Of a stretch of DNA of 22,303 bases, positions 3,193 through 9,836 are shown in pieces. A model generated the notes under the pieces. The model was not told where the DNA came from. It made no database searches and saw nothing but the letters and a program-made list of their open reading frames with translations. This DNA is from Chloroflexota bacterium (lineage in GTDB: Bacteria > Chloroflexota > Limnocylindria > Limnocylindrales > CSP1-4), in NCBI GenBank assembly GCA_021802185.1, contig JAKAAV010000001.1, forward strand, positions 1 through 22,303, written 5' to 3'. How positions within the stretch are numbered: position 1 is the stretch's first letter; each line of letters begins with the position of its first letter. Made by a program: the position numbers and the translations under genes.

Positions 3193-3541
3193 CCGACCAT
3201 GCTCGCGTCCCAGGGGCGAGCCCCGCGCCCGCGGCGGGCGGTGCGCCGTTGCAGCGGCCTTGCCTGGAAGCTGGAAAGGCGCCCGCGGAGGCGAAGCCGG
3301 ACGCCCCTGCTCGCGCGATCCGGACGGCGCCGGAGCGCGTCTTGCACGCCCGTTTCAGGTGGAACGCATTCCGTCGCGCGGGACGAGCTGCCACGACGCT
3401 GCAAGGCCAAGCCCGCGACGTCGTCCCACGGCTTTGGGGGCACCGGGGCGACGCTCGGTGCATGGCACACCAGCGAGCGGGGGACGCACCGAGGGTGCCC
3501 TCCAGCGGGGCGTCGGGCGCGGACGCAGATCGGCCGGCGCA
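3193..3541. other. Divergent intergenic region, folE / VKOR-SDR
   Basis: 349 bp without a supported gene. Two adjacent perfect short inverted repeats lie just upstream of folE: GGGGC-ga-GCCCC at 3213-3224 and CGCCCG-cgg-CGGGCG at 3226-3240, either of which could fold in the folE leader RNA. I see no convincing -35/-10 pair in this GC-rich stretch. The promoters of both divergent genes should lie here. The upstream in-frame extension of the VKOR-SDR gene into this region has no family similarity that I can recognise. Confidence 0.5.
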
Positions 3542-5437
3542 GTGAGCGCTGCGGCGTTCGGCACGCGCGGCAACCCGTCACGCTGGCCCCGCCGGCTCCC
3601 CGAAGCGGCACTCGCCGTGCTCGGCGCCGTCGTGGCCGGCTATCTGGCCGCGTACCAGCTCGGCGTCGTCGCCGCCGTCTGGGATCCGTTCTTCGGGTCG
3701 GCCTCGTCGGCGAGCGTCGTCGAGTCGTCGCTCTCGCGTGTGCTGCCCGTCCCGGACGCGGTGCTCGGCACGCTGGCGTACCTCGTCGAGGCGGCGCTCG
3801 TGCTCTCGGGCCGGCCGGACCGCTGGATCTCGCAGTCGTGGCGGGTGGTCGCGTTCGGAGTCGTCGTCGCCGGGCTCGGCGTGACCGCGATCGGCCTCGT
3901 GCTGATCCAGGCGCTCGTCGTCCACGCGTGGTGCTCGCTGTGCCTGACGTCCGCGGCGATCTCGCTCGTGATGGCGGGATCGGCGGTGGAGGAGGTGCGG
4001 GCCGCGGTCGAGGTGCTGGCCGCGCGCCACGAGCGTTCGCGGCACGCGGTGGTCGTGTCGGGACGGCGCGACAACACGCTCGCATCCCCGCCGCCGGGGA
4101 CCGTGCCCTCGCTCGCGGGGTCCGTGCTCGACGCGTTCCGGAGCAGCGACGCGCATGACGCGACGAGCGACCCAGGCCGCGACGTCCCCGGCGGGACGGG
4201 CCCGGCCAGCGGCGGTGGTGGCTCGGCCGTCAGCGGGACGGGCAGCGGTGCAGGCAGCAGTGGACAGGAGCCGGCGGGCGATTCGAGCCCGGGACACGAG
4301 GTGACGCAGGACATGACGTACGACACACACAGGACGCAGGGAACGACGGAGACCGCGACCGACGGGCACGGCTCCGCCACCGGGGTCGCGACCGAGACCC
4401 GGGAGGTGTTCGCGCGACAGGGCAACGGGACTCCCCGCCGGGTCGTCGTGGTGAGCGGGGGGTCGGCGGGCGTCGGGCGCGCGACCGCGATCGCCTTCGC
4501 GAAGGACGGCTGCGACGTGGCCATCCTCGCGCGCGGCGAGGACGGGCTCGACGGGGCACGTCGCGATGTCGAGGCGCAGGGGGCCCGTGCGCTTCCCATC
4601 CGGTGCGACGTCGCCGACGCCGACGCCGTCGAACGCGCGGCGGAGCAGGTCGAGCAGCAGCTCGGGCCGATCGACGTGTGGGTGAACGTCGCGATGGTGT
4701 CGGTGTTCTCGCCCGCCAAGGAGATGAAGCCCGAGGAGTACCGCCGCGTCACGGAGGTCACGTACCTCGGCCAGGTCTACGGCACGCTCGCCGCGCTCAA
4801 GCGGATGCTGCCGCGCGACCACGGCCGGATCATCCAGGTCGGGTCTGCGCTCGCCTACCGCGGCATTCCGCTCCAGTCGGCGTACTGCGGCGCGAAGCAC
4901 GCGATCCAGGGCTTCACCGAATCCGTCCGGTGCGAGCTCATTCACGATGGCAGCAGCGTGAAGATCAGCATGGCGCAGCTGCCGGCCGTGAACACGCCGC
5001 AGTTCGACTGGGTGAAGAGCCGCCTGCCGCACCGCGCCCAGCCCGTGCCGCCGATCTTCCAGCCGGATCTGATCGCGAATGCGCTCGTCTGGCTCTCCCA
5101 CAACTACCGCCGCGAGCTGAACATCGGCGCGTCGACCGACCTGGCGATCTACGCGAACCGCATCGTGCCCGGCTGGCTCGACTACTACCTGGGATGGACC
5201 GGATACGACTCGCAGCAGACGGGCGAGCCTCGCGACCCGGATCGTCCGGACAATCTGTGGGAACCGGTCGACGGCATGGGCGGTGGCGACCACGGCGCAC
5301 ACGGTCGCTTCGACGATCGGGCGAGCTATCAGAGCCGGCAGCTGTGGGCCGCCACGCACCGGAACGTGCTCGTGGGCGGTATCGCCGCCGCGGCCTTCGG
5401 CATGTTCGCGCTGACGCGGACGATGCTGTCCAGATGA
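3542..5437 (+). CDS. Fusion: VKOR-family membrane domain + short-chain dehydrogenase + C-terminal TM
   Basis: One uninterrupted frame of 631 residues from GTG 3542. Residues 1-160 form a VKOR (vitamin K epoxide reductase) family domain with four hydrophobic segments (e.g. AVLGAVVAGYLAAYQLGVVA, VVVAGLGVTAIGLVLIQALV) and the redox motif WCSLC (Cys131, Cys134). The loop cysteines of typical VKORs are absent (DPFFGSASSASVVESS). Residues about 170-298 are a Gly/Ser/Thr-rich hydrophilic linker. Residues 299-555 are a classical SDR: SGGSAGVG (305-312) for NAD(P), catalytic Ser435, Tyr448 and Lys452 with standard spacing. A conserved-looking tail (LDYYLGWTGYDSQQTGEP) and a last hydrophobic helix (residues ~608-627) follow. 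It may couple quinone or thiol redox to an NAD(P)-linked oxidation at the membrane. The start is uncertain: no clear ribosome site, and upstream in-frame GTGs exist. An internal ATG (4313) could give a separate SDR product. Stop overlaps a possible ATG of the next gene. Confidence 0.8.
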   Translation: MSAAAFGTRGNPSRWPRRLPEAALAVLGAVVAGYLAAYQLGVVAAVWDPFFGSASSASVVESSLSRVLPVPDAVLGTLAYLVEAALVLSGRPDRWISQSWRVVAFGVVVAGLGVTAIGLVLIQALVVHAWCSLCLTSAAISLVMAGSAVEEVRAAVEVLAARHERSRHAVVVSGRRDNTLASPPPGTVPSLAGSVLDAFRSSDAHDATSDPGRDVPGGTGPASGGGGSAVSGTGSGAGSSGQEPAGDSSPGHEVTQDMTYDTHRTQGTTETATDGHGSATGVATETREVFARQGNGTPRRVVVVSGGSAGVGRATAIAFAKDGCDVAILARGEDGLDGARRDVEAQGARALPIRCDVADADAVERAAEQVEQQLGPIDVWVNVAMVSVFSPAKEMKPEEYRRVTEVTYLGQVYGTLAALKRMLPRDHGRIIQVGSALAYRGIPLQSAYCGAKHAIQGFTESVRCELIHDGSSVKISMAQLPAVNTPQFDWVKSRLPHRAQPVPPIFQPDLIANALVWLSHNYRRELNIGASTDLAIYANRIVPGWLDYYLGWTGYDSQQTGEPRDPDRPDNLWEPVDGMGGGDHGAHGRFDDRASYQSRQLWAATHRNVLVGGIAAAAFGMFALTRTMLSR

Positions 5438-5454: not shown

Positions 5455-6084
5455 ATGGGAACGCTGATCCGAACGGGAGGCGCGGCGCGCTCGGCGCAGG
5501 GGTGGTCGGAGAACGTGCGCGACATGCTCGCCGAGCGAGGTTCCCGAGCCCGGGATGCGATCGGTGGCCTGCGGTCCGCGCCCCCGGCGCGAGTCTCGAA
5601 CGGCCCGAGTGCCGTCGCGATGCTGCTGGCCGGTCTCCTCGGCGCCGCGCTCGGCGCGCTGCTCATGTACCTGCTCGACCTCGAGCGGGGCGCGCACCGC
5701 CGGAACGCGCTCGCGCAGCAGGCCGGTGTCGCCCTCCGCTCCGGGCGCGAGGGCGCGGCCGAGCGGTCGAAGGACGTCGCGCAGCGAATGCGGGGCATCC
5801 GGATCGAGACCATCCGGCGGGTCGAGACGACCGGGGGCGAGGAATCCGCGCCGGACTCGGTGGTCGCGGAGCGCATCCGCGCCGAGCTCGGGCACAGCGT
5901 GCGCCACGCCGGGGCGATCGAGGTCGACGTGATCGACGGGCGGGCGATCCTCCGCGGACCCGTGCTGCGCGACGAGCTGTCGTCGGTGCTCGCGACGGCG
6001 CGCGGCGTGGACGGCGTCCGGGACGTCGAGTCCGAGCTCGAGATCCACGAGGCTCCGGGGGCGGTCCCCGCGCTCCAGGACTGA
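5455..6084 (+). CDS. BON-domain protein with a single membrane anchor
   Basis: 209 residues. A hydrophilic N-terminus is followed by one transmembrane helix (AVAMLLAGLLGAALGALLMY), then LLDLERGAHRRN, a variant of the YLLDPERGxRRR motif found after the membrane helix of many small BON proteins. The C-terminal ~65 residues form a BON domain (SVVAERIRAELGHSVRHAGA, then AIEVDVIDGRAILRGPV and VDGVRDVESELEIHE). BON domains are thought to bind phospholipid or other hydrophobic surfaces and occur in envelope-stress proteins. The gene follows the VKOR-SDR gene within 20 bp and is probably co-transcribed, which puts both at the membrane. No enzymatic residues are expected. Function beyond envelope association is not known. 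Confidence 0.82.
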   Translation: MGTLIRTGGAARSAQGWSENVRDMLAERGSRARDAIGGLRSAPPARVSNGPSAVAMLLAGLLGAALGALLMYLLDLERGAHRRNALAQQAGVALRSGREGAAERSKDVAQRMRGIRIETIRRVETTGGEESAPDSVVAERIRAELGHSVRHAGAIEVDVIDGRAILRGPVLRDELSSVLATARGVDGVRDVESELEIHEAPGAVPALQD

Positions 6085-7867: not shown

Positions 7868-8341
7868 ATGTCGAATGACCCGCACGTCGCCGGCGGAGCG
7901 CGGGGCCCGCATCGCGATTGGCCGCCCGAGCCTGGGCAGACGGCTGCCGCCCTGCGCGCCTCGTCGGATCCCGAGCACGCGCCCTCGGCGGACGTGCCCG
8001 CGGGGCCCCCAAGGCCGGTGATGGGCGAGCACGGGCCGTTCGCCGGCGCCGCCGGCGGAATCGTCGCCGGCCAGGTCGGGAGTGGCCTACTGGCCGGGCC
8101 GCCGGGCGCGGTCATCGGAGGCGTCGTCGCTGGCGTGGCCGGTGCCATCGTGAGCTGTGCCGCCGACGACGTGGCGCCCGGGGAAACCGAGACCGTGGAC
8201 GAGCCGGGCCTTCGCGGGATCGCGCGTCCGGAGGACGCCGCATGCGAGGTCCGTCCCGACGGGCGCGCGCCGCGTGTCCGGTGTCGACGCCGGGGACGTC
8301 CGGCCACCCGCCCGCGGCCGCCGGGGCCCCGGCGTGTCTGA
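7868..8341 (+). CDS. Glycine-zipper membrane protein, hypothetical
   Basis: 157 residues. The ATG at 7868 has a very strong purine-rich ribosome site (AGGAGAGGAGGAG, 7854-7866). The N-terminal ~50 residues are Pro/Ala-rich. Residues ~55-95 form a hydrophobic glycine-repeat stretch (AGAAGGIVAGQVGSGLLAG, then AVIGGVVAGVAGAIVS) like glycine-zipper segments of small membrane or envelope proteins. The tail is Arg/Pro-rich and poorly ordered. The stop overlaps the GTG start chosen for the Nramp-related gene by 8 bp, so the pair may be coupled. No family recognised; the last ~40 residues look like low-complexity sequence and might be out of the natural frame. Confidence 0.55.
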   Translation: MSNDPHVAGGARGPHRDWPPEPGQTAAALRASSDPEHAPSADVPAGPPRPVMGEHGPFAGAAGGIVAGQVGSGLLAGPPGAVIGGVVAGVAGAIVSCAADDVAPGETETVDEPGLRGIARPEDAACEVRPDGRAPRVRCRRRGRPATRPRPPGPRRV

Positions 8342-9836
8342 GGGCGCCTCGGACCGGCGCCTTTCCGCGGGCCAGCGTGATTCGACCCGACACCAGGCCG
8401 GGAAGCCGAACGGGAACGGGCGCGCGGTTTCCGAACGGCGGGTGGCGGCCTCGGACCGGCATCGCGCGGAGCCCGCGTCGAACCGGCACCGTGCCGCGGC
8501 TGTCTCCGATCCCGCAGGGCCGACGGTCCAGCCGGGCCGCCCGCCGAACCCGATGGTCGCCGAGCTGCGCCGCGAGTCGAACCCGCTGCGGCGTGCGTTC
8601 GCGGTCCTCGGGCCCGGCCTGATCACGGGCGCGTCGGACGACGACCCCTCGGGGATCGGGACGTATGCGCAGGCCGGCGCGCAGTACGGCTATGCGACCC
8701 TGTGGTCGACGCTGGCGATGCTGCCGATGATGTCCGCGGTGCAGTACATCTGCGCCAAGATCGGGATGGTGACCGGACGGGGCCTGGCCGGCGTCCTCCG
8801 GCAGCACTACCCCCGCCGGATCCTCTATCCGGTCGTCCTCGCGATGGTGGCCGCGAACACGATCAACGTCGGTGCCGACATCGGTGCGATCGCCGCGGCG
8901 ATCAACCTGCTCGCGCCCGTCCCGCCGATCGCCCTCGTCGTCCCGGTGGGAGCGCTCCTGATCGTGCTCCAGGTCCTCGGCTCGTACGGGCGGATCGTCC
9001 GGGTGTTCAAGTGGCTCACGCTCGCGCTGCTCGCGTACATCGCCGCGGCGATGTTCGCCCACCCGAACGCTCTCGACGTCCTCAGGGGCACGCTCGTCCC
9101 GACGATCCGGCCGGACTCGCAGTTCATTGCGCTGCTCGTGGCGCTCCTCGGCACGACGATCTCGCCGTACCTCTTCTTCTGGCAGGCGAGCCACGAGGTC
9201 GAGGAGGAGATCAGCATGGGCCGGCGGCGCCTCTGGGAGCGCCAGGGGGCGTCCGGCGCAGAGCTCAAGTACGCGCTGTGGGACACGCTCGCGGGCATGG
9301 TGCTGTCGGAGGCGGTCGCGTACTTCATCATCCTCGCCACCGGCGCGACCCTGTTCGTGCACGGCCAGACGAACATCGCGTCGGCCACGCAGGCCGCCCA
9401 GGCGCTCCGGCCGATCGCCGGGAACCTGTCGGAGCTCCTGCTCGCGGTCGGGCTCATCGGCGCCGGCGTCCTTGCCGTGCCGGTGCTGACCGGCGCCGCC
9501 GCGTACGGCGTCTCCGAGGCGTTCGGATGGCGGTTCGGGCTCGACCAGAAGCCCGCGAGGGCGCCGCAGTTCTACGGCGTGATCGTCGTCGCCACCATCA
9601 TCGGGGTGCTCATGAACTTCCTGGGCATCAACCCGATCTCGGCGCTGGTCATCACGGCGATCATCAACGGGCTCGTGGCGCCGGGGCTCCTCGTGCTCGT
9701 CATGCTCGTGTCGAACAACCGGTCCGTGATGGGCTCGCGCACGAACGGCCGGCTGCTCAACGTGCTCGGCTGGGGGACGACGATCCTGATGAGCCTCGCG
9801 GCCCTCGCGCTGATCGTGACGACGCTCGCGGGGTAG
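8334..9836 (+). CDS. Nramp-related (SLC11-like) metal ion transporter with altered metal site
   Basis: 500 residues from GTG 8334. The conserved transporter part begins at about residue 74 (ATG 8553 would give 427 residues, the normal family length). The first 73 residues are hydrophilic but keep high third-position GC. About 11 hydrophobic helices follow the Nramp/SLC11 layout. In TM1 the canonical DPGN is DPSG (GASDDDPSGIGTYAQAGAQY, Asp104-Gly107). In TM6 the canonical MPHN region is SPYL (TTISPYLFFWQASHEVEEEI, Ser277-Leu280), so the methionine that favours Mn/Fe over Mg/Ca is missing. Other landmarks are TINVGADIGAIAAAI and FLGINPISALVITAIINGLV. It is an inner-membrane cation transporter, perhaps for Mg2+ or another hard ion; the substrate is inferred. 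Ends convergent with enolase. Confidence 0.82.
   Translation: MSEGASDRRLSAGQRDSTRHQAGKPNGNGRAVSERRVAASDRHRAEPASNRHRAAAVSDPAGPTVQPGRPPNPMVAELRRESNPLRRAFAVLGPGLITGASDDDPSGIGTYAQAGAQYGYATLWSTLAMLPMMSAVQYICAKIGMVTGRGLAGVLRQHYPRRILYPVVLAMVAANTINVGADIGAIAAAINLLAPVPPIALVVPVGALLIVLQVLGSYGRIVRVFKWLTLALLAYIAAAMFAHPNALDVLRGTLVPTIRPDSQFIALLVALLGTTISPYLFFWQASHEVEEEISMGRRRLWERQGASGAELKYALWDTLAGMVLSEAVAYFIILATGATLFVHGQTNIASATQAAQALRPIAGNLSELLLAVGLIGAGVLAVPVLTGAAAYGVSEAFGWRFGLDQKPARAPQFYGVIVVATIIGVLMNFLGINPISALVITAIINGLVAPGLLVLVMLVSNNRSVMGSRTNGRLLNVLGWGTTILMSLAALALIVTTLAG

Follow-up and report, generated by a model that had tools for sequence, protein, structure and literature searches.

The 22,303-nucleotide stretch of Chloroflexota DNA analysed here (hereafter, the window) carries a gene that joins a VKOR-like membrane domain to a short-chain dehydrogenase (SDR) in one reading frame. 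We put at roughly 0.5 the probability that the gene is a true fusion of functional partners that are encoded elsewhere by neighbouring genes and share a membrane-soluble substrate across the membrane. The frame at 3542..5437 (+) runs from a GTG start to a TGA stop and translates into 631 aa without an internal stop, in the order VKOR-fold domain, disordered linker, SDR of the NF005495 family and C-terminal helix. The first-pass annotation had proposed such a one-frame fusion and a domain search to check it; the search placed Pfam VKOR (PF07884), Pfam adh_short and NCBIfam NF005495 above their cut-offs in the same frame, and the architecture of the fusion is firmly shown. The open frame stretches farther upstream of the GTG at 3542 (829 aa from stop to stop), and this codon is supported as the start because the nearest relative has an ATG at the aligned position. 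If the VKOR start is used, the full-length fusion follows, since no stop lies in between.

The N-terminal part, residues 22-145 (3605..3976, +), matches PF07884 with 61.2 bits against a curated cut-off of 27.5. Its AlphaFold2 (AF2) helices at residues 15-39, 72-88, 99-127 and 132-173 form the four-helix bundle of the VKOR fold, and VKOR structures occupied the top rows of fold searches with this part. A sequence search of the PDB with the same part yielded two chance antibody matches and was superseded by the fold search. VKOR enzymes are thiol–quinone oxidoreductases that pass electrons via a loop cysteine pair. This pair (Cys43 and Cys51 in the human enzyme) was found in 0 of 42 subfamily rows, which include the window and in which L214 repeats the genome of P0003, versus 30 of 30 ordinary VKORs, a set made up of loci returned from the window's own bacterial family. 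At the corresponding loop (3680..3706, +) the window carries W47 and S55: 40 of 41 rows have W at the first cysteine position and all 41 have S or T at the second, whereas each of the 30 ordinary VKORs has C at both. Residues P69, D72 and Y80 are likewise each present in 41 of 41 subfamily rows, where ordinary VKORs have Gly, Val and mostly Ser, respectively.

The CXXC motif, C131-S-L-C134 at the head of helix 4 (3932..3943, +), is retained in 40 of the 42 rows, the exceptions being P0023, which has lost it, and L199, in which the contig end cuts it; C131 and C134 are present in 40 of 41 aligned rows. S62 aligns with a conserved loop serine (S in 40 of 41 subfamily rows and 30 of 30 ordinary VKORs) and, on our reading of the spacing, may be the counterpart of human Ser57. 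Because the loop cysteine pair is absent, the domain is a VKOR-fold homologue and not a canonical four-cysteine VKOR, nor an ordinary thiol-shuttle VKOR. The VKOR-type domain with WCSLC that the first-pass annotation had described is thus real in its fold and its CXXC, but atypical in that both loop cysteines are gone. A second VKOR-like type, marked by LPEPPLP and also devoid of loop cysteines, adjoins the same SDR in other Chloroflexota (L177, L190, L194 and L204), and its CXXC is present in six of six rows.

The C-terminal half contains a classical SDR domain at residues 297-557 (4430..5212, +), as judged by Pfam, NCBIfam, the AF2 model and fold search. The adh_short match covers residues 300-487 (140.4 bits, cut-off 26.6), and that to NF005495 (PRK07109) covers residues 298-625 (474.6 bits, cut-off 264), spanning profile positions 7-328 of 334 and reaching into the C-terminal helix. 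The SGGSAGVG cofactor motif (residues 305-312) and Ser435, Tyr448 and Lys452 lie where the first-pass annotation had placed them; the triad is invariant across five aligned fusions, and its Ser-Tyr-Lys pattern recurs in 8 of 8 fusions. At what we take, from the motif, to be the position of the catalytic-tetrad Asn, the window has T, and among the eight fusions only P0005 has N, the others having T or S; this Asn is not among the features scored for NF005495 membership. An Arg after strand 2 is associated with a preference for NADP(H), and its presence suggests NADP(H) as the cofactor. The closest solved folds are ordinary SDRs with 20-28% identity and tied Z scores, the first Foldseek rows include the membrane SDRs 17-beta-HSD13 and 17-beta-HSD11, and SDRs filled the rows of the whole-model search.

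The comparison with related genomes that the first-pass annotation also proposed revealed the same fusion outside the window. The nearest relative, Chloroflexi bacterium DBS1-3.bin120 (L035, JAJYGH010000041.1), encodes it in a single frame and shares its flanks, in the order folE (-), fusion, BON, NUDIX and eno (-), an order also kept in L214; the BON-domain gene lies directly downstream of the fusion (5455..6084, +) and is kept in the relative. The order VKOR-linker-SDR occurs in at least eight protein clusters (P0002, which holds the window's protein, P0003, P0004, P0005, P0006, P0024, P0025 and P0026), a minimum because the 8000 candidates sharing most words were scored and one search kept the best 120 of 7912. 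An assembly or frameshift error, which had been raised as a way to explain the joined domains away, is unlikely given at least seven other fusion clusters with the same order, and we rejected such an artefact on the strength of fusions in other assemblies together with the conserved synteny. Two of the eight genomes of the window's genus, several of them incomplete, carry the fusion. Outside the eight clusters we left P0028, whose N-terminal part looks by eye like the tail of an SPW protein although Pfam shows no SPW, and P0027, an apparent reverse-order fusion (SDR then VKOR in one predicted frame) whose scrambled middle suggests frame errors. The surroundings of the gene vary: the gap between folE (-) and the fusion (3193-3541) measures about 350 bp in the window versus about 2.8 kb in L214, and a gene for an Nramp-type transporter that separates NUDIX from enolase (8157-9836) has no counterpart in the stretch of L214 that is syntenic.

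The linker that joins the two enzymes (residues 178-294; 4073..4423, +) is rich in Gly, Ser, Thr, Pro and Ala and predicted to be disordered over about 117 aa, or 142 aa long if taken to begin 24 residues beyond the CXXC. Its lack of stops means little alone, because the chance of a stop-free linker at the window's base composition is 0.37, and its gap lengths offer no evidence of selection, since alignment at the protein level forces gaps of three. The linker also evolves fast: its dN/dS between the window and the relative is 0.52 (residues 163-296), whereas the VKOR part has 0.18, the SDR 0.08 and the C terminus 0.15. The linker's differences by codon position (39, 37 and 57) have only a mild third-position excess. 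These properties would suit a chance stop-free intergenic stretch, or an assembly error, with no fusion protein made in life. We regard that as very improbable: at least eight clusters have no stop between VKOR and SDR, with in-frame linkers of 45-142 aa (137, 87 and 91 aa in relatives); the gene order from folE to eno is kept in L214; and third codon positions of the linker are GC-rich (0.88 and 0.83 in the comparison of the window with the relative). The suggestion that the linker is mere intergenic readthrough is therefore not supported, as the relatives' linkers stay in frame and other assemblies carry the fusion.

The frame may nevertheless yield two products, the full fusion and a free SDR translated from an internal start inherited from a two-gene ancestor, an arrangement that would be compatible with a functional fusion. 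The candidate start lies at 4301..4315 (+) and comprises GTG 4301, where the relative has an ATG, as well as ATG 4313, which is preceded by GAGGTGA 8 nt upstream. In P0002, P0003, P0004 and P0006 a Met (Val in the window) is followed by T and then Q or D, and the residues before the Met in P0005 (KEKSM), P0025 (KEPAM) and P0028 (KESSM) could be encoded by AAGGAG. However, the ribosome site in the last three is read back from protein sequence, and inspection by eye shows no comparable site at that spacing in L035, so we hold a second product to be a tentative possibility.

Outside the fusions, the two domains are often encoded side by side. In a sample of 400 genomes of the phylum, 43 matched the SDR at E 1e-60, at 45 places, of which 2 are fused, 36 were fetched with flanks and 7 are weaker. 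At least 17 of these 36 unfused Chloroflexota loci have a same-strand VKOR gene less than 600 bp from the SDR (5 upstream and 12 downstream; 13 of the WDPFFG type and 4 of the second type), a lower bound because several contigs end near the SDR; in the other 19 a VKOR gene was absent from the fetched stretch. No VKOR gene was found beside other SDRs at 26 control loci from the window's nearer kin (L009-L034, with no more than 1.5 kb of flank). Within the class, the SDR is present at E 1e-100 in 12 of 177 genomes: 2, of the window's genus, have it fused, G070 and G221 have a VKOR gene just upstream, G515 has one just downstream, and 7 have none in the stretch fetched. The pair is thus not obligatory, as shown by the 19 loci and 7 class genomes without VKOR in the stretch examined. 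The coupling can be tight: in G070, a member of the window's family, an ATGA after AAAGGAGG holds both the stop of VKOR and the start of the SDR, the same overlap occurs in L201, and in L206 and L198 the SDR start necessarily precedes the VKOR stop.

Beyond these genomes, 80 loci were kept of 588 from named genomes, many of them Actinomycetota. Counted anywhere in the locus, the first VKOR type occurs in seven, including the fused L035, and the second in three, L103 carrying both, so that a VKOR gene of either type is present in 9 of 80, in two of them on the other strand only. VKOR-SDR pairs are frequent in Chloroflexota and occur sporadically elsewhere. Plasmids have the order GH15-VKOR-SDR in the haloarchaea Natrinema and Halocatena, VKOR-SDR in Stutzerimonas and VKOR-GH15-SDR in Candidatus Manganitrophus, and the VKOR proteins of all four carry SPW repeats; a Rhodococcus plasmid has GH15-SDR, with no VKOR in the stretch shown. 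A GH15 gene is present in 19 of the 80 named-genome loci; such a gene is a frequent companion of the SDR, whether or not VKOR is there too, on chromosomes as well as plasmids (L215, L216, L003, L004 and L217).

Because VKOR and SDR are separate, adjacent and in some cases overlapping genes in other lineages, we conclude that the fusion derives from a conserved pair. Separate genes in relatives had been named as evidence against the fusion; they were found, but they show that it is derived and not that it is false. In a quick SDR tree of 82 rows, from which most of the VKOR-less L041-L114 were omitted by locus number and in which SH-aLRT was the only branch support, the fused label (9 rows, including P0028) needs four changes, of which well-supported branches force two. 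The fusion perhaps arose more than once; a single fusion with a later split could also fit the tree, as the unfused L198 sits inside one fused group. Across 20 unfused pairs, VKOR and SDR identities correlate (r 0.42; 0 of 5000 permutations), which may come from shared descent alone.

How the two domains might work together depends on their placement in the membrane. The fusion has net positive charge at the N terminus and in the loop after helix 2, with arginines after helix 4. By the positive-inside rule, this weak signal would put the N terminus, the linker and the SDR on the inner side and leave the CXXC outside, so that CXXC and SDR probably face opposite sides of the membrane. The C-terminal helix (residues 607-630; 5360..5431, +), seen in the AF2 model, is a probable second membrane anchor; six of seven fusions tested reach the hydropathy threshold of 1.6 here, and the window's copy misses it.

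On this predicted topology, direct electron transfer from SDR to CXXC is unlikely and any cooperation must go via a diffusible molecule. A shared membrane-soluble substrate, or a VKOR-like part that serves as anchor, would fit better. Under the reading we prefer, the protein would enter the membrane with its N terminus inside and cross it with four helices, leaving linker and SDR in the cytoplasm, where the VKOR bundle and the SDR's own C-terminal helix would hold the SDR at the inner face. The SDR would use NADP(H) to act on a carbonyl or alcohol soluble in the membrane, most likely a lipid or a molecule resembling an isoprenoid quinone, and the VKOR-like bundle would bind the same kind of molecule. 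The single CXXC, in the absence of a shuttle pair, would carry out another redox step on the outer side of the membrane, and the linker would tether the two enzymes loosely so that both stay with one pool of substrate.

Two other accounts assign the VKOR-like domain a different part. It may do no more than anchor the SDR in the membrane or give it a lipid-binding scaffold, with a CXXC that takes no part in thiol–quinone chemistry. Loss of both loop cysteines in 42 of 42 rows points that way, as do the additional loss of CXXC in P0023 and the occurrence beside the SDR of a different VKOR subtype that also lacks loop cysteines (in L177, L190, L194 and L204). Yet 40 of 42 rows retain the CXXC, as do all 6 rows of the second type, and the nearly invariant polar residues D72, Y80, R94 and Q123 suggest an active site, which makes a pure anchor rather unlikely. 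The first-pass annotation envisaged instead a dinucleotide-driven thiol reductase, with electrons passing from NADPH through the SDR and a quinone to the CXXC. Both folds are redox-enzyme folds and the VKOR-SDR pairing recurs; however, SDRs transfer hydride to carbonyls and not usually to quinones, and the two sites would lie on opposite membrane faces, so that we judge this route improbable.

A link between a dinucleotide pool and a membrane redox pair may exist. As a bolder conjecture, which we think unlikely, the fusion and the pairs would represent a conserved two-enzyme membrane module of bacteria and haloarchaea. Its cytoplasmic SDR, dependent on NADPH, would make or recycle a lipid-soluble molecule whose redox state the shuttle-less VKOR would read or reset, and NADPH would in this way be coupled to extracytoplasmic thiols across the membrane without a thioredoxin partner. 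Fusion and pairing mark the VKOR-like protein and the SDR as partners in a membrane reaction and, together with gene order, tie a shuttle-less VKOR subfamily to an SDR of the NADP type. The fusion singles out the two proteins that should be assayed jointly, and with the haloarchaeal and Chloroflexota pairs the role of shuttle-less VKORs becomes directly testable. In open-licence PMC literature we found no description of a VKOR-SDR pair or fusion, and no paper that treats VKOR together with SPW repeats or GH15. The 2015 VKOR phylogeny, in the portion of its text available here, counts both loop cysteines among the fully conserved residues and culled sequences without known conserved residues, so that a shuttle-less subfamily would probably drop out of it; the words fusion, fused and dehydrogenase are absent from that portion (PMC4555120).

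Several known proteins resemble the fusion in part. VKOR fused to a thioredoxin-like partner is familiar, as described in the same phylogeny (PMC4555120). In Synechococcus VKOR (3KP9, 4NV2/5/6) this partner is a thioredoxin at the outer face, whereas here it is probably a cytoplasmic SDR, and no thioredoxin-like domain matched the window's fusion in Pfam at E 0.01. Unlike Synechococcus VKOR, moreover, the window's VKOR lacks the loop cysteines and its AF2 model has no separate fifth helix before the partner. The SDR matches family NF005495 (PRK07109), but VKOR and linker precede it in frame. The VKOR-SPW proteins on the Natrinema, Halocatena and Stutzerimonas plasmids belong to the same VKOR subfamily and lie side by side with the same SDR family; in contrast to the window, these are two genes with SPW repeats on the VKOR protein, and a GH15 gene accompanies the pair, on the other strand in Stutzerimonas. 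Finally, the epimerase-SPW-VKOR proteins P0012, P0015, P0020, P0022 and P0023 (804-856 aa) also join the same VKOR subfamily to an NAD(P)-binding enzyme, which in them is an N-terminal extended SDR (PF01370, residues 23-241 in P0012, the one whose layout was checked by Pfam) and in the window a C-terminal classical SDR.
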